Shown here in pieces: positions 6,001 to 62,892 of a stretch of DNA of 64,000 nucleotides (position 1 is the first letter of the stretch; every line of letters starts with the position of its first letter). The notes below the pieces were generated by a model, which made no database searches, was not told the DNA's origin, and saw only the letters and a program-made list of their open reading frames with translations. This DNA comes from Xiphias gladius. Taxonomy: Eukaryota > Chordata > Actinopteri > Istiophoriformes > Xiphiidae. The DNA is taken from contig NC_053400.1 in the NCBI RefSeq assembly GCF_016859285.1, forward strand, positions 18,200,546 to 18,264,545, written 5' to 3'. The position numbers were made by a program, and so were the translations under genes.

Positions 6001-8117
6001 TGAACAAAGGGTCTTTTCCTTAGTCCACTGTAGCAATATGTAAGATGGTGTTAAGATAAAAAACATGTGATTCCAGAAAATGAACATATGCTATCAATAT
6101 ACAGTATAATATGGTGAGTGTCTTGTCCGTGTAACACTTATCAGTTCAATTTTCCATTAAAAACAGTAATGGAAAACTGTGTCTGATTTGACTGTGGTAG
6201 CAAAATTAATGGTCAAACTTCTGACGCTGACCAACCAATGTATCCATCACGTCTCACTCAAACGTTTTGGGGTTTTTTTTTAAGATTAAAGCTTTATCAC
6301 CTGTTCTTCAAAAATAGTCACTACTGTACTTCTGTAATTGATTTTATTTCATGAGATCCAGTGAGAAGGGAAAGGCAACTAACTAAATAATTTCTCACAA
6401 AGTTGTGATAATCAAGTGTTTAGACTAATTTAATCACTGAAATGTGACATTATTCTTATGTTTTTTATGTTGATATGGAACCATTTCTTGTACAGATTCT
6501 TTTAAGCAATGCTTGTACTGGAAATACTGTGTAAATGAAGATAAATCATTGAAACTTTGGACAATAGTAGCAGTTTGCCAATATGAGTTCAAAGCAAACT
6601 CCCTTCAACAGGCGAACACTTTAAGTTTTTCCACATTGTATCCCATAAAATTCATGATCTACAATCTCGCCTTACACAATGATAATTTCATTATCCTGAG
6701 TGACTGAAGGTCATAAAAAGAAATCAAGTTTTACACTTTGATGTCATCAGCAAAATAGAGAGGGGGGAAAAAAAAAAAAAAAAAAAAAAATCAATCATGA
6801 ATGATTCATGAAGGTCAAGATCACAGTGACTCCCTGTGGGTCTATGTATTATGCTTCTGCTTCTGTGGCAGAGGGAGACTTTATTCCATTTCATATCTAT
6901 ATTTAGAGAGCTTATGAACTGCAACAGCAGATGGTCTGTGACCAGAGACAGAGGCCAGACTGTTACAATCCATTCCAGCGAAGGATATTTTGATTTTCCT
7001 CTCATGCCAAGTCGCCGCGCCTTCATGTTCGGGAAGACATTTTTCATCATTTTTCCAAAGTCTGCGGCACTCAGTGGGTGGTAATTAAGATTGTCGCAAA
7101 AGCTCCTGCAACACATAACAGACAGAACAAATGTGATTAAGAATAGAGAAGGAACAAAAAAATCCATGTCAGTTTTCAACCAAACCACAGTGTATGCCTT
7201 GAATCATGAATCAGAGTCATATCAACAGAGCAGATTATTTTCTGAGCTATTAATGTCCGCATCCCTGGCGAGGTGATGAAGTGGTTGGAACAATTAAAGC
7301 TGCTCTAATAAATATTTTTATATTAACAATGGATTAAATGACTCAATGAACTGTCAGAATGATCACCTGATTCTGCAGTTCCCCTCTGCACAGCACAGCG
7401 TTTTAGCGCCTTTCAGCTCATTGTTTTTGTTCACTCTCACTGCTCTAGTCAGTGTTGTTTTTCAGCTGTTTTCAGCAAAAAGCTCTAGAAACCCACGGCG
7501 CACTACGTGCTCAGCACCAAACGGTAGCTGGTGAAGATAGTGGAGCAGCTACAGAGCTAGAAGAGAGTGAATATTAGACTTACATCCATAAGGTGGCGGG
7601 ATAATGTTACTCTGTAACTGCTGGGTGAGTAATCAGGCAACTGTTTGCTAACACATTTGTTATATCAACTTGTGATATGTCAGATGTTGTGTTTACAACT
7701 TGTTCTGCTGCCCCCAAGTGGTCAAAAAACGTTAAACTTTAATGCTCGTTTAAAGGCATAATATCTTATGTTATTGTGATATGATAAATGTAAACATATA
7801 ATAAGTTTTGTGTTGCAACAGTGAAGCTGCAATAGTTACTCACAGTCATCTAACATAAAGTGCCCTTTATCGTTTGATATCTAGAATAAGTACCACACAG
7901 ACACATGTATTTACCATAAATTGTTGTTCGTTCATTAAGTTAACTAAAGTCCTGATAACATTTGTCTTCGTCACCTAGAAGCTCCATTAAGCTTTTTAGA
8001 TACAAATTGTACCCTTTTACTTACCAGGTACAGTTGAGGTTTATTTGGCTTTATTTACTCTGATTCAGAGCTACACTGCGAGCTGAATAATTTCAAAGGG
8101 TCGAAACATATATCTTT

Positions 8118-39400: not shown

Positions 39401-41329
39401 GACTTTTTACATGAATGCCAACTTCCTATTTATGTCTGATTCATTTAAGCAACAAATCAGACATTAAAGCAAAGATGAAAACACATTAAGAGCATTTTAC
39501 CCAGAAAGTGTTGATCTCTGGGTGCAAATTTTTATGTTGTTTGTTTTCAAAAATATTTTATGGCTGTGTTATGCTATGCTTTCATGTTTCCACTCATGGA
39601 CTAGATTCCACAGGAGGTTTACTCACCATCATATGAAATTTCAGGGCTTCCTGTGTAAGGAATTCTTCTTGACAATTGGTGCACTTTTTCTTTATGATCC
39701 CATTTTCCACTCTCACAGTTACTTTTGCCGGCCCTAAAGAAAACCAGTTAGATGTTACAAATAACTAGATATTAAAACACAAGAGAACTTAGATTAGGTT
39801 CAGGCTTAGTTTCCAGTAATAAGAGTATAAAACAGTGTCAAAAAAAATCCCTCTGGTAACAGACACTTACCTAAGTCAAGCTTTGCTCTTTTTGCCACAC
39901 TGTCTGTTTCCTGTGGTAGCAATCCTCGTTTGACTGCGCTTTGATCTGTATGAAATCCAAGAAAACCCATTTACATTTTAGTCATTGTCAGCTCGTTTAG
40001 CTGCAAGCATGGTAAAATACCGTTAAATCTAAGAAAACTACCTCTATTGGTGCTACTGAAGGTCTGAAGAGATTGGGAGTTTGGTCGTATAGGTTGCAGC
40101 TGATTAGATTGTGTTGAATACACAGCAGGGCTCTGGACATTAGACAACGTCACGACGTTGTTGCTGATTTGTTGCACCTGAGGCCTGTGGACGGCACCAG
40201 GTATTACTGTGCCTGGACTGACCTGCTGAAAAAGCTGCTGCTGTCCAGCTGAACAACAGAGGACACAAACTCTTAAGACAAACTTGGCATTATCACATTA
40301 AAACTATAAAAGCCTTTGATGAAGCTTATTGTATTACATCACCAAATCGCTGATAAGAGGGGAAAGAGGATTTACTCCTCAGAACTGTATTATAATCGGG
40401 TTTACCTGGTACAATTGTAAATGATGTCCCAGGTGGGTACTGTCTCCCAAGAGAGGCAATGAACTCACTGTTGTTTGCTAATTGTGGAGAAGTGACAATA
40501 AAGCCCTGCAAAGAAGTTTGAATCCATAATTCAACATAGGAGTACTTCATGCATCAACTGGATAAATTTACATAACATGAAAAGCTGTTTACTCCATACA
40601 AAACAAAATCACAACAAACAAATAGTTGTCCTTTTTTCAAATTATTTGGAAAAATAATTAAACAATACCTGGTTATTGACAATAACAGGCTGCGGAGTAA
40701 CTGTAGTCAGATTGGGTGCTGCAGTATTCACTGCATTTCCCACCATATTCAGTGGCAACATTATTGGTGAGGAGCCCATGGCAGGCTGGGGAGCAGGACG
40801 CTTTATTTCTTGTATCCCTGCACTGTTCCTCTGAGGAGGTGGAGGGTTAGGCTTACCATCCTTTTGGTTATTAGCTGTAAGAACATACAAAAGGACCAAA
40901 GTAAGCGCTTCAACAGGCTACTTTGTCTCCTGAAGTAAATAAACCTAAACAAACTGTAAGCAGAGATTAGGTGCAACCTGCAGGAGGACAAGTGAACAAA
41001 ATGTAATATTAATTTTAAACAGCTATAGTAAATATCAATTTGATTATAAACTATCAATGTTAAACTGTTCTATGCCAAATATTAAACAGCAGATGGTGAT
41101 TCTGCGCTACACATTTCATATTATCGTTTGCACTTGTTGGGCTTAAACATCAACAAAATTAGGTTTTTAAATGCTGACATTCATAAATTTTAAAAATGTG
41201 AAATGACATACAGAGCACTCCAACGAAAATGGGTTCATCATCATCATCCTCTATCAAGTGAACTTCAGGAACTTGTTTCTGCCAAGGCTCCAGCTCCTCC
41301 TCGACACATTCCATAAAGAGTTCAGACAT
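33480..41329 (-). CDS. znf280d: znf280d, zinc finger protein 280D (suppressor of hairy wing homolog type), 17 coding exons
   Basis: Nuclear C2H2 zinc-finger protein. Coding exons in transcript order: 41212-41329, 40669-40874, 40406-40505, 40042-40248, 39871-39945, 39627-39733, 39201-39388, 37386-37543, 37188-37288, 36951-37097, 36354-36488, 36010-36242, 35537-35677, 35364-35432, 35158-35273, 34981-35077, 33480-33861. The joined frame gives 859 aa (human about 979). The N-terminus [17 protein letters not shown]...[10 protein letters not shown] and exons 2-4 form the ZNF280-family N-terminal domain of unknown function. C2H2 fingers run from about residue 240 to 500, including [45 protein letters not shown] and [15 protein letters not shown]. 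Two atypical Cys-rich modules follow (CIECNTQ...[10 protein letters not shown] and [11 protein letters not shown]). The C-terminal exon is acidic and variable. The ATG exon is preceded by an AG acceptor, so a non-coding 5' exon lies upstream. Confidence 0.94.
34078..34646 (+). mobile_element. LINE (RTE-like) 3' fragment in a znf280d intron
   Basis: Degenerate C-terminal reverse-transcriptase tail with recognisable pieces: [43 protein letters not shown] and [10 protein letters not shown]. It ends with the very common fish 3' end 'ccgctgtggcgacccctgac...gaagaag'. 5'-truncated with frameshifts, inside the last znf280d intron on the opposite strand. Confidence 0.8.
37575..37602. repeat. (CA)n microsatellite
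   Basis: Short CA repeat just upstream of a znf280d acceptor, running into the tract before exon 8. Confidence 0.8.
38040..39190. other. znf280d intron 7, no gene seen
   Basis: AT-rich intron. The stretch at about 38705-39080 resembles a segment in rfx7 intron 4 (7380-7640): 'cagctgttttcagcaaaaagct' against 'cagctgtttttagagaaaaagct', and 'gaatattagacttaca' against 'gaatattggacttaca'. This points to an old dispersed repeat. No coding potential. Confidence 0.45.
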
Positions 41330-45504: not shown

Positions 45505-48500
45505 CCATTTAAATGTAGCATCTACACGCTGGTTATGAATGCAGGCTTTACAAATGTTTTTCCACCACTTTTTTTAAATTCAACATGGCTCCTTCTCTTA
45601 CTAGTTTCCCCAGTACTGTTGCTGGTTGATAAAATGCAATCAGCTTGAATGGGAGTGGGCGCTTCCAAAAGAGGACATGAGAGTTTGGGAACCACAGATT
45701 TAGACCAACTTTCATAAAACGGCCTTTGTAGCAAACTAAACACTTGTGTGCTGCTTCAGAGTGAGATGTTCAGGTGTGTATCAGATTCAGCCCTGCTTGA
45801 TCCCAGTACATCTTAATGTATTATTGAGAAATTATGAACCAATACCATGCATTTGAATAATACAGCAATGAAGCACGTGAGGCTGGGTTTTGACTTAAGA
45901 ATTTATTTTACTGAACATAATACTAAAATAATGGCTGTACCATTGAAGTGGAATGTAAGTTACAGGCTGCTACCACTTTTTTCTTTTGGTCTTGGACTCA
46001 CAGTGGCCTGCACAGACACTTAAATATGCAGATAACATATTAATTTGTGCAATTGATATGACACATTTATGTGAGATGACTTACTGAACTCACCAATTAT
46101 AACTGTTGGTTTCATCTTGCTTCATTTAAGTTTTATAGTTATTGTTTGTTTGATGTGCCAGTTGATTCAAGTTCAAGTACGGTAAAGCGAGGCCGAGAAA
46201 CCGATACAGAGAGGGCCTGTGAGTTGGACTGGTCTGACTGTAGCTGGTTAGATGATGTTGCATATACTGCAGGACCCTGGACACTCGATAAGGACACAGG
46301 GTTGTTGCTGATTTGCTGCACCTCAGAAGAATGGACACCACCATAGGCCCCGGGTGTTACTGTGGCTGTAGCCACTTTCTGGAAAAGTTGCTGGTGACCA
46401 GCTGGAAAACAACACACAAACTCTTTGGGTGAACTAAACAAAAGATAACACAAATTACATCATCACAAGAATATCAGCCCCATTAAACAGTCATTAAAAA
46501 AGGTGAAAATAGTTACAAAAAAAGTCTGTTCAGAGCGCTCCACGCTTTTACCTGGTACTACTGCAAACGAATTCCTGGGAGGACATTGTATCCCAAGGGA
46601 GCCAATGAACTCAGTGTTGCTTGTTAATTGTGGAGAAGCCACAATGAATCCCTGGGAAATAGAAACAGAGTCCATATTTTAACATACAGAACCAGTACCC
46701 ATGTAACAACCATTTCGGAAATTAAATGACAAGCTATAAGTTATTACAAATAACTACATAAAATGATTCTAATAACATCATTACTTGGTTGTTGAAGACA
46801 ACAGGCTCTTCAGTTTCTGTTTTCAACTTCGGTGGTGAAGTCATCACTGCATTTCTCTTGTTCGGCTGAGAGTACAAAAGCTGGATGTTTAAAAACCTCA
46901 ACACCAACATGTTCTTTAAGAAAACGCTGTTACATACTCAGCTCTCCAACGTCATCTTCATCTTTACAGTGAACTTGTGAAGTTTGTTTCTGCCATGGCT
47001 CCAGCTCCTCCTCTTCACAATCAAGTAAAAGCTCAGATGTTGTGGACCTGAAACAGAAAACAGCAATGAATGACACACTTGGTTTCCGTAACATACAATA
47101 ACCAGACAAATGTTTACTGATATGCCAAGCTCCCATTCAATGATTGATGAATTTGCTGTCTTCACTTGGCTTTTTTTTTTTCTTTGCTGCCCTTTTTTGA
47201 GCCAATTTGCCTTTTCTAATTTCCAATACTCTCTTACAGAGGGAATCAAAGAAGACTGGTTTTTGTAAGTTTTCTGCTCATATCATTCGGTTTAAAAAGT
47301 AGTTTTATGGGTAAATAGTAAAAATTATTCTCATTTACAATCATTCTTAAGTATTCCATTCATAATCCATCTTAATTTGGTAACTCTGATAAAATGGCAT
47401 CTTTTTGGTTTTCTTGTAGTAAAGCAGTTAATTTCAAGAGGGTGGAACTGGGATTATCTTTGTCTAAACCTGTAGGTGTGGCCTTCAGACACAAGTTGCT
47501 CTAGAGCTACAGGACCAAGAATTTGCATCATTCAGTGAACACTGAGTTGCCAGTTTATAAAGCTAAACCTAGCCTAGCAACAATCCTGCATTGAATCCTG
47601 GTTGAATCTTATTATATTCACTTTTTGTTGAGACTGTAAGTGAAGGTGTTGATTCAACTCTTTGGTAATTTATTTTATGGCACTGTTGAATTATGAATTT
47701 AACGTTTTACAGAAAACAGTTTCTACTATTTTTTTTGGAGGGGTGGGGGGGGGTGTGTTCTATTTGAACAGTGCATGTTTAAAGGAATCCACTGCTCTTT
47801 TATGTTGGAATAGCTTTAACCTTTTCTTTGTACTGGTGTTTCAATTCTCCCTCTATCATGAGATTTGAGCAAGATTAATACATTCTACATATCAACATTC
47901 TTGGAGAAAAAAAAGTTTGTTGTAATATATTAATTCAAAGTACATAATAACTTTGATTTTATAAAAAACATTCTTGAAAATGAGCCTCATCAAAGACATA
48001 CAGGTATTAGTGGGAATTAGTGGTACGTAAACTTCTTCATCACAGCTGTCATCTGCTCCTGATGTTTTCAGTTCAGTAGTTTCTGTGATGTTTTCAATAT
48101 CACTATCCAAGTCAGATCTATTAGATTAAAAAAACAAAACAAAACAAAACATCTGATGATAGAATCAAATGAGACACAGAAACACAAATTACGATACAAT
48201 ATATGCTGTATAATATAGTATAAACTTACATTCTGTTCTTCACACTGTTGCAATCATCCTCATCAATAGTGACCTCCACCTCATCGAAACTGAAAATGTC
48301 ATGTCACAGTTAGGACAATGAATAAGACAGGGAGTAAAAAAATATCAATACAGTACTGACAGACATATATAGCTACTGAAACATACATTCTCAAAAAAGA
48401 TCAATAGATGTTCAACATCAACTTGCTGGTGCCGTTTACCTCTGCAGACATACAGAAAATAATTTTCTGAAAATTCAAAAGTCGTTACAGCATGTGGACA

Positions 48501-49765
48501 TTAATTGTATAATATGACACCTGTGCAGTGAAACCCACATGAACGCCTGTAAAATATAATGTGATCCAATGCAAAAGCCATGGAGTAACCCAGAGCATGC
48601 AAAGCAATAAAAAAAAAAAAAAAAACATACAAGCAGTCTAGATTGACGCAAAGTAACTGTCACGTTCCTGGTTCAATTCTGGCCAAGTAGCTTCTAATGT
48701 CATCTACCTTTATCTTTCCCCATGTTTCCTTTCAAACACTGCTAATAGATTTAAGTAAAGGCCAATTTTTGGGGTTATTAAAAAAAATGTATGGGCTAAA
48801 ACAATGTCAACGGCCAACCTCAGTCAATACAAGTGATGTGTTAAACAAGACTAGGTCAAAACCTAGTATATAGCTGAACCACCCTTCAACAGAAAGTAGC
48901 TAAGGTTTGTCCAAAAAGTTGCTAGATTTGTCACGAGGTGCTTTTTTTGAAAAAAAAGTTTTTAAAAGGGTGTAAAAACTGTAAATCTTGTGACAAAGGC
49001 GCAAAGTTGGTAACACTGCCTGTAAACGCCCCCCTGTAGAAGTAATAGAACCTGTTTGCACTAATTCATTTTGAAAGAGCAACGACCAATTGGGAAAGTC
49101 AAACACTCGTTCGGCTGACCAATGGTGTAACTTCATCACTCAGTCAGGCGGTCAGACGGTCAGTCAGACATTTACATTTGTAGGACTGGCCCCCACGTTG
49201 CAGCCCAGCCAAAAAACAAGGCAAGGTGATGACTGCTTACCTTTCAGAGGCTGATACATGTCTAAGACTTGAAGGCTCTTGTATGCAAGCTCCAGTGGAG
49301 GTCATCATTATTGAGGATCTCTTTTCATACCTGTAAAAAGAAACCTTATCATTAGACACAAAACCTCATCTGGAAAAAAAACAAAGCGCAAATCTCATTT
49401 TTAAGCAGACAACTATCTCAGTCATAATTATTACAGAAAGTACTTCTAAAAGCTGTGGATTAGACGGAGGAATCTGAAGATTGTTTAAGCAAACACTCAT
49501 TTCCTCTGAGTTTTACAAATGCGATTTTTTCAAGTTTGTACCAAAAACTGTTTGCAGAGTCAGCAGATGTTAATACTGCATAAATTATATGACAAATCAA
49601 ACTGAAACTAACAGCATGGATAGAGAGTAGGGGTGAGTAGGAACATTTTTTTCTCAATAAAGTATAAGTACGAACACGAATGTTTGTGTCTTCAAACAAA
49701 AAAATAGTAAAGATAAAAATATATGTTCAATGACTCCAACTGTGTAGAGCATAAGTGAACTCTAC
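45505..49765. repeat. Tandem segmental duplication, copy A
   Basis: Matches 53377-57385 in direct orientation over almost its whole length. Flanks differ by roughly 5 percent by eye, but the central 46119-46861 differs at only about four sites. Copy A has an insertion between the exons at 47047 and 48003 and a deletion of roughly 290 bp that removes half of one exon. Carries znf280d-like exons. Confidence 0.85.
45902..45907 (-). terminator. Candidate poly(A) signal, copy A
   Basis: AATAAA on the minus strand about 230 bp below the stop at 46139, at the same relative position as in copy B. Confidence 0.5.
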
Positions 49766-50430
49766 AATGTTGATAGTTTACAAATGACACTGCATGTATT
49801 CCATCAGGCAAATTATTAAAAGTATTACTGTTGTACATCAAATTGTAATGATGTAATGATAAACTATAATGTTTATCAAGTGTAATGTTTATGTACTTGT
49901 ACCAAAGGAAGGCCTACCTTTGAGATTCAGTGCCATTGCTAGCCAGTGATGGGGGAGGTGGTAGCTCATGGTTACTCCCAGTCTTCAGGAGGGTTGATGC
50001 TGATGGACCCTTTATGTACCTTTTGTAACTGTTTAAAAAAAAAAAAAAATGGAAAAAAGGAAAAAAGGATGTAATGTTATAATTATGTATCCAGAGCTGA
50101 GAGACCAGGCGCGATGTATGCAGGGGTTGTATTGGGCCGGGGCTGTCAGGGGCTAAGCCTATGATGGGCCGGTATTAAACCAAATTCTGTGACCCAAATA
50201 CTGTAGGAATTTCAGTTGTATTGCCATTGCATAAATGTTTTATCATACTTTGGAAGCAGCTACCAAAATAAAGGAAAACATGCAACAGGAGGACAAGAAC
50301 AGAGTTAACTTGCTCTGTCAATGTAACCTTGCTGAAATGAGGGTTGGTTCCATTTCTTTTGGTCAACACATTCAACAAATTATTTTCTTTGCCTAAAACC
50401 TATATTGTGTAATCTGTATTTTCTTTGCAG

Positions 50431-50916
50431 GTTTCATTAGATGACATGTTGAGTGCAGACAGAGATGACCTCCTTGATAGAGTAGCCACATGTCTCCCAG
50501 GTTTGATATTTGACATAGGTCCTAATGCTACAAGGAGCAGTATACTACTGTGGTGGTGCACTTGTCAAAACTGTCGGGACATACCAATACAGATTAAGAG
50601 GAAGTGCTGCCAACAGAGACCAGAATACTGTATCAGCTGGGCACCCCATATGGAATACTGTTGCTTGGAGGAGGGGATTCTACAACTGGCAGGGCAGCTC
50701 AGACATGAATATCTGGGCTTAGATGACCCACAAGACCCTGGGTAAGTCAACAGAGAATACAGACATGCAGCATAGAGAGACTTTGTTTTGTGGCATCAGG
50801 GTCAACTGAGGGCTGGTCACCAAATTGTCATCCCAGGCTGTTGCATGTTCCGCATATCGGACACACATCGAGATCCTGATAGGAACTATAAAGGCTTCAT
50901 CCCTGGCCTGCTGTGA
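50431..50916 (+). pseudogene. P2X7 cytoplasmic-domain-like pseudogene
   Basis: One frame runs from a splice-acceptor-like tttctttgcag to a TGA at 50914. It encodes a Cys-rich module of the P2X7 receptor C-terminal (ballast) type: WCTCQNCRDIP, KRKCCQQ, YCCLEEGILQLA, then NREYRHAA-RDFVLW and HQIVIPGCCMFRISD ending YKGFIPGLL. In mammals this domain is the cytoplasmic tail of P2RX7, and stand-alone relatives are frequent in fish. Two in-frame stops, TAA at 50743 and TAG at 50773, break it. The TAA overlaps GTAAGT, so the first half could still act as an exon. It lies in the large intron of chimeric gene A, on the other strand. Confidence 0.65.
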
Positions 50917-51049
50917 CACATTTTTAGATTCCATTCATTCCCATACCGTACTGGTTTTTGCTACTGCTTTGCACAACTGAGCTGCAGCAATATTTATAGA
51001 CTAAGCTCAGGCCAGAGTGAGGCTGACAGGAGAAAGGCTACAATCACTC

Positions 51050-52050
51050 AGAGACTGCTAAGCCCTTTTTCAGAGGGGGAAATTTGTGTCTCTTGAGCTT
51101 TGTGCTGGGTGGCTTCACACAGGCTGGACCCACGTCTTCATGGCTCTCACAGGGTGAGGGTCTCTAATCTAATCCCATGGAGTAGCGAGGGCTTCCTGAC
51201 TCAGGGATTGCCTATGGGGTATTATTTGGTGTAGGAAAGTGGTCACAACAGATGCCTCCCTTTCAGGCTGGGGGGGGAAGTATTGGAGTAGTAAATGGAA
51301 CCTGGGACCCTCACCGGCACTCCACTCACATATGATATACTCACAATTACCTGGAATTGTAAGCTGTTCATCTGTCACTGAAACATTTCCTCCCTTTCCT
51401 GAGGGGACATCATGTGTTAGTCCAGACAGACAACACCACAGTAGTGGCTTATATCACCAGACAGGGGGGGCGCAAGATCCCTTCAGTTGCACACACAAGC
51501 AATGTTTTCTGTCTCTGAAAACCACCCATGTGCCAGGAATTCTGAACAGTGGAGCAGATCTTCTGTCCAGGGGGAACCCCTTTTATGCGTAATGGAGACT
51601 TCACCTAGGCATACTGAGTGGTGTGGGAGTGGTACGGGTGGCTGTCCTTAAACCTCTTTGCAACATCGGACAACACTCAATGTCCTTTGTTTTTCTCCCT
51701 TCATGATCAGAATGTACCTCTGGGGTGGGCGCACTGGCTCATCGGCGGCCTCTTTTGTATGCATTCCCCCCGATAGCTCTGATCTCCCCGACCTAGGCCA
51801 GGGTGCAGGAGGAGGGCCTGTCGATGATTCTCGTAGCTCCTTACTGGTCGTCAAAGCACTGGCTGGCAGAGATTACCCAGCTCCTTTGCCAGGAGGAGCT
51901 GGGAGGAGCTGACAATACAAAGGGACCTGCTGTCTCAGGGGTGTGGACAAATATTTCATCCCCACCCAGAGAGACTAGCTCTGTGGGCCTGGCCCATGAG
52001 TGTTTCAACCTGAGGACCCTGGGCCTCCCCCCGTACATAACTGAGACTTA
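51050..52050 (+). mobile_element. Degenerate DIRS-like retroelement fragment
   Basis: Remnants in several frames include the RNase H-type start VVTTDASLSGWGG (from about 51239), QTDNTTVVAYITRQGG (about 51420) and the HVPGILNSGADLLSRG motif (about 51525). A distal SMILVAPYWSSKHWLAEITQLL (about 51816) and a DLLSQGCGQIFHPHPERLALWAWP-like stretch (about 51920-52000) follow. This order is typical of DIRS-type polyproteins after the reverse transcriptase. Frameshifts and stops show that it is inactive. The 5' boundary is uncertain, and no tyrosine recombinase or terminal repeat was found. Confidence 0.6.
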
Positions 52051-52559
52051 GCAAGCTGATGCTACAGTTGCTGTTGCAGAGAGGACGAGATGGTTTCCCA
52101 CAGCCAGCACACCGGCTGCAGACAGCGATACTCACAACTCTCCTGCTACTATAGCTAACATCACACCAACAGCTTATCTTGGCATACCAGAAAGTAAGCT
52201 GAATGTCCGTGGGTAAGTAATTTAACTGGCACCTATTTAGTAACTAACCAGTTGCGATTAGCTATCACAAACATTAGCAAACGGGAAAAACAATACCGAC
52301 CTATCGGCTTTGGGAAACATAGCAAAAGTAATGTTACCCACCTGTCGAGCAGAAACAGAGCGACCTCCACATCCGCCTTCATGCCTTTCACCTCTCGGAG
52401 GTCTCTCCACCGTTGGAAAGCCTCACCGATGTTAACGCGGCTCTTCCCCCTCGCGTGATCATAGCCCTTCTTTTTCAGTTTTTGTTCTTCTGACCTTCTC
52501 CTCCTCGGCTGTTTCTCAGCCATCTCTCCTTGAATATGCGATTGTGTTGTGTTGTGTTC

Positions 52560-52760
52560 AGTACTTTGGCATGTGCCAGATTTACCTGCTTTCGCTCTCA
52601 CTCACGCTTTGCGTTGCCTTGTCCTATGCAGAGCACCAACGCCGTTTGTCGCTGATTGGCTGGAAGTGTTGTGCTGCTCGGTCCGACCCGCTTTGTTTTC
52701 CATTAGCAGAGCCAGGGCTGCGTGGGAACAGCGGGTTTTTTCAGCTGACAAACAGAGCAG
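52560..52760 (-). promoter_or_regulatory. Promoter region of chimeric gene A
   Basis: GC-richer segment directly upstream of the leader-exon ATG (52523), with a CCAAT box on the minus strand (agccaatcagcg, about 52651-52662). The combination of leader exon and CCAAT-bearing upstream sequence suggests that the promoter was carried along with the repeat-type leader. Confidence 0.4.
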
Positions 52761-53776
52761 ACAGCTAGCGGACCATACGGAGATACTCACTGAATCTGAC
52801 AAAAAGTGTATTGGATTCGAGTCGCTGACGGCACCTTTAAAGACTAGACATAAGATTTGACATACGACTTGATTTAGTTTATTTCCAAAAAGCGACTTAA
52901 GTGGCCAATTCCACTGGCATGTAGACTACTTTTAAAATATTTGCATTGCAAACCAAGTTTTAAATTAGTTTTGTTAATTAGATCATTAACAATTACATCT
53001 CCACTGCACAAGTGTCAATAGGGACACTTTTTCTGGAAAGCGATAGTGCGGTTTTATTTTTTCAATGTTGTGGTTGCCACAAACTTCTAGTCACCCTTTG
53101 GTACTGGAATGGAGGCAGAAAATTCAGAGACAGAAGTGTCAAGATTTGGACTAAACTATCTGAATGGCCTGATATCACTAGAGCTAAGTGACATTTTTTC
53201 ATAATTTGGGAGAACCTACATTTCATTTACAAGAAATGGCTTTAAAATGTCAAAATGTTATTTTCTAATGATTTGTAAACATAAAGAAATGTTTAAAATA
53301 AAAATATACAGCATTTGTGAACAGGGTTCACTAATGTGTGAGTAATTTGCTTGGAAGGAAACTTTGATCCACTTTGCCCATTTAAATGTAGCATCTACAC
53401 ACTGGTTATGAATGCAGGCTTTACAAATGTTTTTCCACCACTTTTTTTTTCATTGAACGTGGCTCCTTCTCTTACTAGTTTCCCCAGTACTGTTGCTGGT
53501 TGATAAAATGCAATCAGTTTGAATGGGAGTGGGGGCGTCCAGAAGGGGACATGAGAGTTTGCGAACCACAGATTTAGACCAACTTTCATAAAACGGCCTT
53601 CTTTAGCAAACTAAACACTTGTGTGCTGCTTCAGAGTGAGATGTTAAGGTATGTATCATATTCAGCACTGCTTGATCCCAGTACATCTTAATGTATTATT
53701 GAGAAATTATGAACCAATACCATGCATTTGAATAATACAGCAATGAAGCATGCAAGAATGGGTTTTGACTTAAGAA

Positions 53777-54040: not shown

Positions 54041-56814
54041 TTATTGTTTGTTTGATGTGCCAGTTGATTCAAGTTCAAGTACGGTAAAGCGAGGCCGAGA
54101 AACCGATACAGAGAGGGCCTGTGAGTTGGACTGGTCTGACTGTAGCTGGTTAGATGATGTTGCATATACTGCAGGACCCTGGACACTCGATAAGGACACA
54201 GGGTTGTTGCTGATTTGCTGCACCTCAGAAGAATGGACACCACCATAGGCCCCGGGTGTTACTGTGGCTGTAGCCACTTTCTGGAAAAGTTGCTGGTGAC
54301 CAGCTGGAAAACAACACACAAACTCTTTGGGTGAACTAAACAAAAGATAACAAAAATTACATCATCACAAGAATATCAGCCCCATTAAACAGTCATTAAA
54401 AAAGGTGAAAATAGTTACAAAAAAAGTCTGTTCAGAGCGCTCCACGCTTTTACCTGGTACTACTGCAAACGAATTCCTGGGAGGACACTGTATCCCAAGG
54501 GAGCCAATGAACTCAGTGTTGCTTGTTAATTGTGGAGAAGCCACAATGAATCCCTGGGAAATAGAAACAGAGTCCATATTTTAACATACAGAACCAGTAC
54601 CCATGTAACAACCATTTCGGAAATTAAATGACAAGCTATAAGTTATTAAAAATAACTACATAAAATGATTCTAATAACATCATTACTTGGTTGTTGAAGA
54701 CCACAGGCTCTTCAGTTTCTGTTTTCAACTTCGGTGGTGAAGTCATCACTGCATTTCTCTGGAGAGGTGAAGGCTCCGCCTTACAATCTATTTGGTCGTT
54801 AGCTTTAAGAACATACAAAAGGATCAAAGTTGGATGCATCTTAACTTTTGTAAAATAAAATTTTAGCTGAGAATATGTGCTACAGCACACAGACATGCTA
54901 GCAGTCTAACTCAATCAATCTATTAGTACCACTATTTTTTTTAAATATCACTCAAATATCAATGTTATGACTAACTATTAATATTTAATCAAAAATAACA
55001 AGCCATTCTGAGTCGCAAAGTGTATTTGATGACAAGTTTTTACTAAACAGTTATTTCCATCTCAGTGGAGTACAAAAGCTGGATGTTTAAAAACCACAAC
55101 ACCAACATGTTCTTTAAGAAACGCTGTTACATACTCAGCTCTCCAACGTCATCTTCATCTTTACAGTGAACTTGTGAAGTTTGTTTCTGCCATGGCTCCA
55201 GCTCCTCCTCTTCACATTCCAGTAAAAGCTCAGATGTTGTGGACCTGAAACAGAAAACAGCAATGAATGACACACTTGGTTTCCGTAACATACAATAACC
55301 AGACAAATGTTTACTGATATCTTTCTAGTCTTCAACATTTTTACGTAATACTTCTTCCAAACAATGTACAAGTAATCCCCAAATTAAAGTCAAGTAATGT
55401 AGCAATAGAGGAAAAGAGGTGCAGCAAATCATTTGAGATTTTGTTGTTTTAGCAAGGATGTGCACACATGTAGCTATACTGACTCAATCAAATAAATAAA
55501 TAAGTACACTTAATGGTATTATTATTGTTCTTGCCACTGCTATTTATATTCTTATGATTGTGAGAAATGCCAAGCTCCCATTCAATGACTGATGAAGTAC
55601 ACAAGAATAACTTTGATTTTCTAAAAAACATTCTTGAAAATGAGCCTCATCAAAGACATACAGGTACCTCTGAGGAATTAGTGGTACGTAAACTTCTTCA
55701 TCACAGCTGTCATCTGCTCCTGATGTTTTCAGTTCAGTAGTTTCTGTGATGTTTTCCATATCACTATCCAAGTCAGATCTATTACATTAAAAAAACAAAA
55801 CAAAACATCCGATGATAGAATCAAATGAGACACAGAAACACAAATTACGATACAATATATGCTGTATAATATAGTATAAACTTACATTCTGTTCTTTACA
55901 CTGTTGCAATCATCCTCGTCAATAGTGACCTCCACCTCATCGAAACTGAAAATGACATGTCACAGTTAGGACAATGAATAAGACAGGGAGTGAAAATGTA
56001 TCTTAGGAAAGTCAATACAGTACACCAATGCTGGTGCCGTTTACCTCTGCAGTCATACAGAAAATAATTTTCTGACAATTCAAAAGTTGTTACAGCATGT
56101 GGACATTAATTGTATAATATGACACCAATGCAGTGAAACCCACAGGAACGCCTGTGAAATATAATGTGATCCAATGCAAAAGCCATGGAGTAACCCAGAG
56201 CATGCAAAGCAATAAAAAAAAACAAAAAAACATACAAGCAGTCTACATTGACGCAAAGTAACTGTCACGTTCCTGGTTCAATTCCGGCCAATTAGCTTCT
56301 AATGTCATCTACCTTTGTCATTCCCCATGTTTCCTTTCAAACACTGCTAATAGATTTAAGTAAAGGCAAATTTTTGGGGTTATTAAAAAAAAAAAGTATG
56401 CGGTAAAAGGATGTCAGACTAGGTCAAAACGTAGTATATAGCTGGACCACCCTTCTACGGACAGTAGCTAAGGTTTGTCCAAAAAGTAGCTAGATTTGTC
56501 GCGAAGTCCTTTTTTGAAAAAAAGTTGTTAAAGGCATGTGAAAAGTCTGTAAATCTTGTGACAAAAGTACTAAATTGGCACTGCCTATAAACACCCCCCG
56601 ATGAAGTAATAGAACCTGTTTGCGCCAGTTCATTTTAAAAGTTTTTTTAAATTTTTTGGCTGGACCGTTGTTAAGGCCCAGCCAAAAAAAACAAAGCAAG
56701 GTTATGATTACTTACCTTTCAGAGGCTGATACATGTCTAAGACTTGATAGTGCGGTAGGCTCTTGTATGCAAGCTCTAGTAGAGGTCATCGTTATTGAGG
56801 ATCTCTTTTCATGC
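54041..56814 (-). CDS. znf280d-like N-terminal module, copy B (intact, 7 exons; 5' part elsewhere)
   Basis: Exons in transcript order: 56716-56814, 55886-55945, 55668-55778, 55135-55244, 54687-54802, 54454-54553, 54041-54303. All borders are AG/GT and phases agree, giving about 286 residues after an incoming split codon. Two basic or acidic linker exons (EKRSSITMTST; FDEVEVTIDEDDCN) and an acidic exon (ISDLDSDMENITETTELK) precede [54 protein letters not shown] and AGHQQLFQKVATATVTPG. The last four exons parallel znf280d exons 1-4 exon for exon, in the same phases, but the protein stops before any zinc finger. The first exon starts mid-codon, so upstream exons are required; the nearest candidates are those of the THAP gene. 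Function is unknown; a protein-interaction role is the simplest guess. Confidence 0.6.
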
Positions 56815-59618: not shown

Positions 59619-62600
59619 TTAGTTCTTGATGATGAGTCCAGGAAAAATAAAGCAACCATCACCTGCAATGTGAAGTGGAGTTGCGTCCAGCTGTTGGTGG
59701 ACCCCCTTTGCATAGATTCCTTCCTGCTCAGACCTGATCATCTGTTTCTTTTCTGAGTTGAAGTATGCCTTTTGAATTTCAAAAAAAGTTTTATTCCCCA
59801 TGAAATTCAGGTGCAGATGTTTGGCCCATTTTTTAAAGTATGTAAAGGTGCCTCCGGAAAAAAGGATGGCAAGAGCTGTAAGAAGGTGGATTTCAGGAAA
59901 CGCCTCCCAAAGGTGAGGTGATGACATCCATGTGCCCCTGTGTCCACCAAGGCAGCTCCACCTCACCTTCTTCTGTGCACCACAGTGAGACACCTTCTTT
60001 TTGGTTATGGTCTGTCCACATGTCTGACACTTCTTAAACAGCTCCATCAAACAACTGTCGTTCACAATAGTCTTTGACTGACTCAAGTCTTTTTCTGTGT
60101 TCTTGTCCGATTTTGATGCTGTTGTCCAGCTAAATTCAGACTCTTGGTGAAAGCTCTCATTCAGACGATCAACAGATGCCAAGCTGTACACATTTTCAAT
60201 GGGATCAGCTGGTGGAGGGGACTGGGATGAAGTGCGTGGAGCTCCTGAGGAAATCTGGGATAACAGAGACAGATGTATAATTCGAAATTAGTTAAAAGTA
60301 GCCGAAACTCATCTGAATAGGGTTCACAATTCCTGTAAGTGTTATACTTACAGGAATTAGCAGGGAAGGAGAAGGTGATGCAGTATCCACACCAGTACCT
60401 TGAACACCCAAGAAAGAAGCTTGTGAAGATGTAGTCGGACCCTTGAGTAAAAACAGTGATTGTTAAACTAGCAGAACAAATTAAAAAATAACATACTAAA
60501 TTTAGAATCAAGGGTAGCAGTCTAATTTACTAGTATACATATAAGTAACTCTTTCCTGACACAAATTAACCACATGTTAACTCATCAAAACAGAAAACCA
60601 AATTTTAATAACATAGGGTTACTACATCATACTTACTGAAGTCGGCACAGAGGCCCATTGCAACATGCTGTCCACGCTGGAACCTGAAACCACTGAGGTA
60701 GAGGCTTGAGCATCTGTACTGGGAGCCTTCGGCTAGTTTAAAACAAAAAGCAGTTTGACATAAGCCCACTTGCTAGTCAGATTTGACAGACATTTCCCAC
60801 AAATTTCACTTTGGAACACAAAGTGCCTCTTGTGCCTCTCAGGTACTGCCATTACACTTGAGTCACTGAGGTAAATGTTTGGAAAAACCCACAAGGTCAT
60901 TTAAAAATACTTATCCTTGCTCTGACGGTACGTGAAAAATCATCATAAAATCATCTGGATGAAAAATTGTTCGGTTTGCTTCACAATAAGAAATATTTTA
61001 ACCCATCTCTCAAGTTGAGTCCTGTTTTCTGATCCAAACAAAGATGGTATCCTGAAAGTACATATATTCATACTAAACATGTACAACCTGAAACAATACT
61101 TGAACATTTCATTATCGGTTACATTGTCTGACTAGATTGGTGTTACATTGTATTAATGTATATATTTATACAAAGTCACCAGTCACCATATTTTTCTGGT
61201 GTCATACAAAATGAGCCAGTAGATGTGTTATTTCAGCACTCTGGACTCTGATCATTTCAGAGCAGTAGCAAGTATTCTACAATTTTTTTTTCCCCCAGGG
61301 TTTTTCAAAGATTAAGTGTAATTTATTTTTAAACGGGATGCTTAACTCTTGACTCGCATTTAATGGTAACACACGAGAGGCACAAACTCTGGCTAACTTT
61401 TCCCGTCAGGTTTGAACGCCATGTATCTGTTACCGCGGAGTATCGGGCGAAGTGCTGAGTTCAGTCATGAGAGTGTATCGTCGATCCTGGATTACTGACT
61501 GGGCAAAGAGGGTCCCTGGGCCCCGGGGCAAAGAGGGTAACTGCCCAGAGGCCCCAGGGACAGAACCCATCTGGGTCCTCATGAAATGATTAATGGCAAA
61601 TTTATCAGAAAATTGCACCACTGAAGCACAACATCAACCATGACGGGCCCTTCATTTTGTACCAGGGCCAGAGCGCCAAAAATCCCGTTTTAAGACTTTG
61701 ACTGTTTTACTATATATTGTGCTCGTTTGTAGTAATGTTGTGTTTCATCTAACCGCCCCCCCCCTGTTGGTCGAGTAATTAACTGACAGAAAACTTCGGG
61801 CAAGGTAATATTATTCCATCATAAGCATACGGCAAGTGTACAATAAACTATTATTTTAGTCTTCAATATTTATTGATTGTTTAGTCTATTAAAAAAAAAA
61901 GGGGTCCAAACCCAAAGACGTTGAGTTTACAACTAAAGAAAACTGGGGAACTACGGCTTCTTTTGTCGGTTGGGGGGGGCGGGCGTAGCTGGGTCACCCT
62001 TTCGCCCCCCCCAGTCGACTCCCGAACCCAGTGCCGTTGAAAACCCCGAGGTTTTCCCGACTGCCCGCCACGGTGCTCTCGGCCACAGTTTGCAACGCGC
62101 CGCGTCCTTAGCTGGGAACAGACTGTAACTCCACCCGGTGGGAAGTTTCCTTTCCACGGCCCTTGCACGCCGATGCGACGCGAGCGGACATCACGATGAG
62201 TAAAACAAACGTTTCTTAGCTCAACCAAAGCCACCACTCGCGAATTCACTGCGAAATGAATTTTGCCGGTTGACTCTCGTAAACACGCCGTCCCTGGCAG
62301 AAACCGTTGCTCACTGGGTGTTGTAGGATTTTCCAGTGTGAGGCAGATTACAGGTAATACAGTTTTTTCCTCCGGTTTCTCTGGTTCGTACTGCACCAAA
62401 CTTCAACAATTTGTGCCTAGTTTCAACAAACGACCTGGTCTCTCGCGGCCGAATTGCTGTTAAAAGACAAGACACATTGTAGCTTTCTAGCCAACGTTAT
62501 CTACATAATGCAACCTTTTACAGGTAAAATAAAGTATTTACCTCTGTTCGGCTGCTGTCACCTGCGGGCAGAGATGTGCTGGGGTCCTCTTGCTGTCTTC

Positions 62601-62892
62601 CAGAGAAAACAGACGGAATCACATTGTACTTGAGGATTTTTCGTGGCGTTGTTTTCATAAGTTCTGCCTGTATGTCCGGTTCGTAATCGTGCGGTTTAAA
62701 ATGCTGGCTGCAGACTCGTATATTGCCGTATTTGTTTACTGGTGTGTTTTCGTCAAATTTGGGGTTCTGTATGGCCTTTAACCACTTTCTGCATCGCTCC
62801 GGGTCTCTTGTAGGCAGAGAGTGGAATACGACTCCCCGGGACCTGGCCTTCTTGTAGCCCTTACAGCCTGGCACAGAGCACATCCCCGGCAT
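59619..62892 (-). CDS. THAP-domain protein with transposase-like Cys-rich region, 4 exons
   Basis: Exons in transcript order: 62542-62892, 60637-60732, 60352-60441, 59619-60254. With the stop at 59619 it encodes 390 aa. The N-terminus is a THAP zinc-finger DNA-binding domain (about residues 3-90): C5 and C9 in MCSVPGC, then FHSLPTRDPERCRKWLKAI, VCSQHF and a C-terminal TPRKIL. Two Ser/Thr-rich linker exons follow. The last exon has a CQTCGQT...RWSCLGGHRGTW Cys-rich motif, then HLLTALAILFSGGTF and FMGNKTFFEIQKAYF, ending just after AGDG. That layout resembles the N-terminal half of THAP-containing transposase-like proteins frequent in fish; the catalytic half is absent, so transposition is unlikely. 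An alternative end splices out at 59663 (CAG|GTGATG) towards 58961-59027 and copy B. A domesticated DNA-binding protein is the likely role. Confidence 0.7.
61430..61700. repeat. GC-rich inverted-repeat element, MITE-like
   Basis: Contains ggtccctgggccccggggc facing gcccagaggccccagggac, able to form a hairpin. Resembles short GC-rich fish repeats. It lies in the first intron of the THAP gene. Confidence 0.35.
61960..62300. other. GC-rich segment in THAP gene intron 1
   Basis: Markedly GC- and CpG-rich relative to its surroundings, with G and C homopolymer runs. A minus-strand open frame (61881-62399) crosses it but shows no recognisable domain. It may be a CpG-island shore of the THAP promoter or an unrecognised repeat. 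Confidence 0.35.

Follow-up and report, generated by a model that had tools for sequence, protein, structure and literature searches.

Organization of the locus

We analyzed 64,000 nucleotides of the Xiphias gladius genome (contig NC_053400.1, positions 18200546-18264545; hereafter the window), where a reverse-strand gene had been predicted to be a chimera of a first exon from a repetitive family, here called the leader, and N-terminal exons of znf280d. By protein similarity and gene order, the window is a fish region with rfx7, tex9, mns1 and znf280d; the parental gene is presumably znf280d, a name given from its protein sequence and its neighbours. The C2H2 finger exons of the parental gene lie near 37 kb, with Pfam matches slightly under the curated cut-offs. 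Its first four coding exons and the parts of the predicted chimera (copy 1) are as follows.

40044..41329, minus strand: coding exons 1-4 of the parental znf280d (about 41329-41212, starting at the ATG; 40874-40669; 40505-40406; 40248-40044)
52524..52836, minus strand: copy 1 candidate promoter, with CCAAT boxes, 76.5% identical to copy 2
52342..52523, minus strand: copy 1 leader exon, MAEKQPRRRRSEEQK...RVNIGEAFQRW...ALFLLD, open from the ATG, donor GTGGGT, ending two bases into a codon
49918..50028, minus strand: copy 1 exon 2, phase 2-2
49241..49330, minus strand: copy 1 exon 3, phase 2-2
48230..48289, minus strand: copy 1 exon 4, phase 2-2
47998..48117, minus strand: copy 1 exon 5, beginning in phase 2
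46938..47047, minus strand: copy 1 exon matching znf280d
46785..46846, minus strand: copy 1 remnant of a znf280d exon, third-last exon
46552..46651, minus strand: copy 1 exon matching znf280d
46139..46401, minus strand: copy 1 exon matching znf280d

As had been predicted, the leader (52342-52523) joins in phase to 50028-49918 and onward to 49330-49241, 48289-48230 and the exon starting at 48117, all in phase 2. The claim that this chain runs on into znf280d exons held for its last part, as 47047-46938, 46651-46552, 46401-46139 and the remnant 46846-46785 match the znf280d exons at 41.3-40.0 kb; exons 2-5 (50028-47998) match no znf280d exon. In the znf280d-derived exons (47047-46139) the parental start codon is changed from ATG to ACA, and therefore the former 5' untranslated region would be read as coding. 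Copy 1 carries two defects. At exon 5 the donor present in copy 2 is missing, and copy 1 is a base shorter at that point; in the third-last exon the acceptor and roughly the first third of the sequence are gone. The frame of copy 1 is continuous only via alternative splice sites, the chain of 365 amino acids requiring a donor AT/GTCTTT (at 47997) and an acceptor that look weak and poor, respectively, when judged by eye.

A second instance of the whole gene (copy 2) was identified upstream of copy 1, with exons at 57-54 kb and its leader and exon 2 outside the window, given below in extended coordinates.

73218-73037 (extended, beyond the window): copy 2 leader exon
68617-68507 (extended, beyond the window): copy 2 exon 2
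56716..56814, minus strand: copy 2 exon 3
55886..55945, minus strand: copy 2 exon 4
55668..55778, minus strand: copy 2 exon 5, donor AG/GTACCT
55135..55244, minus strand: copy 2 further exon
54687..54802, minus strand: copy 2 further exon
54454..54553, minus strand: copy 2 further exon
54041..54303, minus strand: copy 2 further exon

The frame of copy 2 comprises 9 exons, 383 residues and eight GT-AG introns, with no stop, frameshift or lost GT/AG. The exons are short, but each exon of copy 1 has its counterpart in copy 2, where phases are identical and the frame is intact, so that the exon chain is more than a chance succession. Both copies share the N-terminal exons of ZNF280D and, as predicted, end before the zinc fingers: four downstream pieces of the parental gene, the fingers among them, had no counterpart next to the two copies within the 92 kb examined, and no C2H2 cluster was found there.

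The leader repeat and its resemblance to Kolobok transposons

The repetitive nature of the leader was borne out by a search of the 690.8 Mb genome, which gave at least 40 scored matches, both gene copies included, from 298 candidates; a wider family of such leaders from a protein search comprised 150 scored members of 964 candidates. The best 20 of the 38 other leader matches were examined with their flanks, giving 22 copies together with copies 1 and 2. The leader is open in copy 1 and broken in 18 of the 20 others. Around the leader ATG the repeat unit spans from about -350 to about +1070 (approximately 1.4 kb) and its ends are abrupt, although many of the copies are shorter. The unit comprises a CCAAT region, the leader coding sequence and a splice donor. 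A CCAAT motif upstream of the leader, noted in the original prediction, was indeed present and lies within 250 bases in 16 of the 22 copies. Near the 3' end of the unit lies a stretch that may represent a second exon preceded by a phase-2 acceptor.

Both ends of the repeat carry the terminal inverted repeat AGG..GTNAGCGATTC adjoining TTAA, and the termini AGG...CCT are of the type 5'-RR...YY-3' and not of the piggyBac type. TTAA was present at 11 of the 17 copies having the 5' end motif, copy 1 among them and copy 2 not, and at 6 of the 10 copies with a credible 3' motif (an extra match, L031, was excluded as spurious), counts that include some end-motif matches with 4-5 mismatches and a motif that itself contains part of TTAA. 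Four copies (L033, L039, L043 and L048) have TTAA at both ends, as expected of a TTAA target site duplication. As TTAA targets and RR/YY ends are the marks of Kolobok elements given in passages of PMC9587614, the leader repeat appears to be a non-autonomous Kolobok-like DNA transposon.

Copies 1 and 2 contain just the 5' portion of the repeat, reaching to about +450 and +230, respectively, and the 3' end motif was found at neither. Leader homology between the two copies is limited to the repeat, whose extent at copy 1 is approximate.

52073..52840, minus strand: Kolobok-like repeat copy around the copy 1 leader; 5' end TTAA/AGGTGCCGTCAGCGACTC near 52840, similarity to other copies fading near 52073

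In a comparison of 11 leaders with up to about 9 kb of their downstream sequence, a common coding-looking stretch was clearest in L016 (3592-4550) and L021 (3849-4799), both numbered on the reverse complement of the locus. This stretch has the look of a Tc1-type transposase. Two more leader-like exons of another subfamily lie immediately upstream of copy 2 exon 2, at extended 69806-69556 (L009, about 6102-6352) and 70202-70065. The former has an open frame, CpG-rich surroundings and a degenerate-looking donor CAT/GTTGGT, and a counterpart of it was not found at copy 1.

Exons 2-5 and domain searches

No relatives of exons 3-5 were found elsewhere among 6 matches. Exons 2-5 may correspond to the exons that follow the first one in this leader-bearing gene family of fish. 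A ZNF280-type N-terminal domain, for which the original prediction looked to the joined protein, was not found by Pfam in copy 1, copy 2 or the parental N-terminus: neither the joined copy 1 protein nor the parental N-terminus gave any match at E-values up to 1, and the copy 2 protein matched only DUF6092 (E = 0.18), far under its cut-off. The retained ZNF280D part includes a 12-residue motif known from ZNF280 and POGZ proteins. For the leader, Pfam returned a single weak match far under its cut-off and a PDB search one match (E = 1.3). An AlphaFold model of the leader computed without an alignment has three helices and a mean predicted local distance difference test score (pLDDT) of 63.9, which is too low to support a fold search.

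No support was found for the leader being the N-terminus of a KolX/P2RX7_C protein; this domain matches 7 times in the genome, once within the window, where it runs antisense and contains stops. This KolX-like relic (50548-50898, plus strand, two stops) lies between the copy 1 leader and exon 2. An open stretch at 51200-51592 (plus strand) has no Pfam match and resembles the RNase H region of DIRS-type retrotransposons. Inside the long intron of copy 2 lies a THAP-domain gene (59619-62892, minus strand) with four exons and its whole chain open; its second part looks Kolobok-like. We rejected this gene (59.6-62.9 kb) as the start of copy 2 because its chain is in phase 0 and its last exon has, apart from itself, a single match in the genome.

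Evolution of the two copies

The leaders of copies 1 and 2 are sisters with 99% ultrafast bootstrap support. Their ratio of nonsynonymous to synonymous differences per site (pN/pS) is 0.19, that is, of the coding type; the ratio for exons 4-5 is 0.13, and exons 2-3 are near-neutral. CpGs are retained in both leaders, and the observed/expected CpG ratio of the leader region at copy 1 (0.79) is the highest of the 22 copies. The continuous frame of copy 2 and the leader ratio point to a reading frame kept by selection, to which copy 1 conforms only with its alternative sites.

Discussion

We propose, with a probability of about 0.72, that the sequence records a transposon-started host fusion gene that was tandemly duplicated, with copy 2 intact and copy 1 decaying. 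A partial copy of znf280d beside its parent, holding the first four coding exons and no zinc fingers, would have gained a new 5' end from a non-autonomous Kolobok-like transposon, which donated the promoter region, start codon, first coding exon and splice donor. The phase-2 exons 2-5, which may come from the same transposon gene family, would bridge the leader in frame to the former start-codon exon, its own ATG lost. The fusion gene would later have been duplicated side by side, one copy then decaying. The DNA itself shows the ends of the transposon, a chain of exons in phase, the loss of the ATG, the coding-type evolution of the leader and the tandem second copy of every exon; transcription from the repeat leader, splicing and translation are predicted to follow. 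The original observation is thus partly confirmed, and its interpretation as exon capture by a mobile leader that brings a promoter region of its own partly supported: the TTAA-flanked inverted-repeat element, the in-phase join to partial znf280d duplicates and a leader kept open speak for it, but the functional candidate is copy 2, the copy first noted being the defective one, and exons 2-5 are foreign to znf280d.

Alternatively, both copies may be decaying relics of a once-functional fusion gene, neither of which now makes protein. The defects of copy 1, the weak-looking splice sites and interrupted 11.7 kb intron of copy 2 and the near-neutral exons 2-3 would all fit such decay, but it accounts poorly for nine exons of copy 2 free of stops, frameshifts and lost GT/AG, for the constraint on the leader and for the retention of CpGs, and we consider it unlikely.

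If the fusion gene is active, its product would be a finger-less ZNF280D N-terminus and a possible modifier of HP1-linked chromatin. Znf280d and Pogz are both named as HP1-associated proteins captured on trimethylated lysine 9 of histone H3 (H3K9me3) in passages of PMC4330348, and hence our guess, a doubtful one, is that a nuclear product devoid of DNA-binding fingers would share, or compete for, the partners of the ZNF280D N-terminus in HP1/H3K9me3-associated chromatin. For ZNF280A-type N-termini, the abstract of PMC8382608 states no homodimerisation, although its body text reads otherwise. According to a review (PMC13113357), ZNF280A binds single-stranded DNA via its fingers, which are absent from the fusion product.

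More broadly, a short non-autonomous DNA transposon appears to provide the start of a gene, from promoter region and start codon through to the first exon with its donor. Tentatively, the repeat could serve as a mobile cassette for gene starts, in which a non-autonomous Kolobok element carries a CpG-rich promoter, start codon, coding exon and donor around a fish genome and has seeded new genes by splicing into downstream host exons, with the znf280d fusion as the first worked example. Because the same leader occurs at many sites across the genome, the frequency with which such cassettes give rise to genes is directly open to study. In the library searched, no paper combined ZNF280D with a chimeric gene, and none of the papers listed on ZNF280D in fish or on first exons from DNA transposons dealt with this fusion, judged by title and opening of the abstract.

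Compared with ZNF280D, the fusion is without zinc fingers, has lost the start codon and has a new N-terminus and C-terminus. It resembles host-transposase fusion genes, in which a transposon exon is likewise spliced in frame to host exons. The usual order in those is a host 5' end followed by a transposase 3' end, and most known transposon-host fusions keep the host promoter, the transposon domain being added at the end.

Xenopus domesticated Kolobok transposases and T2-MITEs (miniature inverted-repeat transposable elements) likewise have TTAA targets and AG termini, and a Xenopus Kolobok terminal inverted repeat listed as AGCGATTCTGACATGG resembles the inner terminal inverted repeat of the leader repeat (passages of PMC6004289). 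However, the domesticated Xenopus genes are transposases, whereas here a non-autonomous element gives the first exon. The P2X7 receptor and Nanor derive from the KolX protein of Kol0 Kolobok transposons, according to parts of PMC9587614 and PMC7016195, and, like our case, have a coding exon of Kolobok origin that is joined to a host gene or retained as one, in fish and other vertebrates. The leader differs from P2X7 in having no P2RX7_C match in Pfam, and P2X7 combines a host 5' part with a transposon C-terminus, whereas here the transposon gives the promoter region and N-terminus. The mode is known in outline from P2X7 and Nanor, but the probable fusion described here runs in the opposite direction and has a non-autonomous donor.
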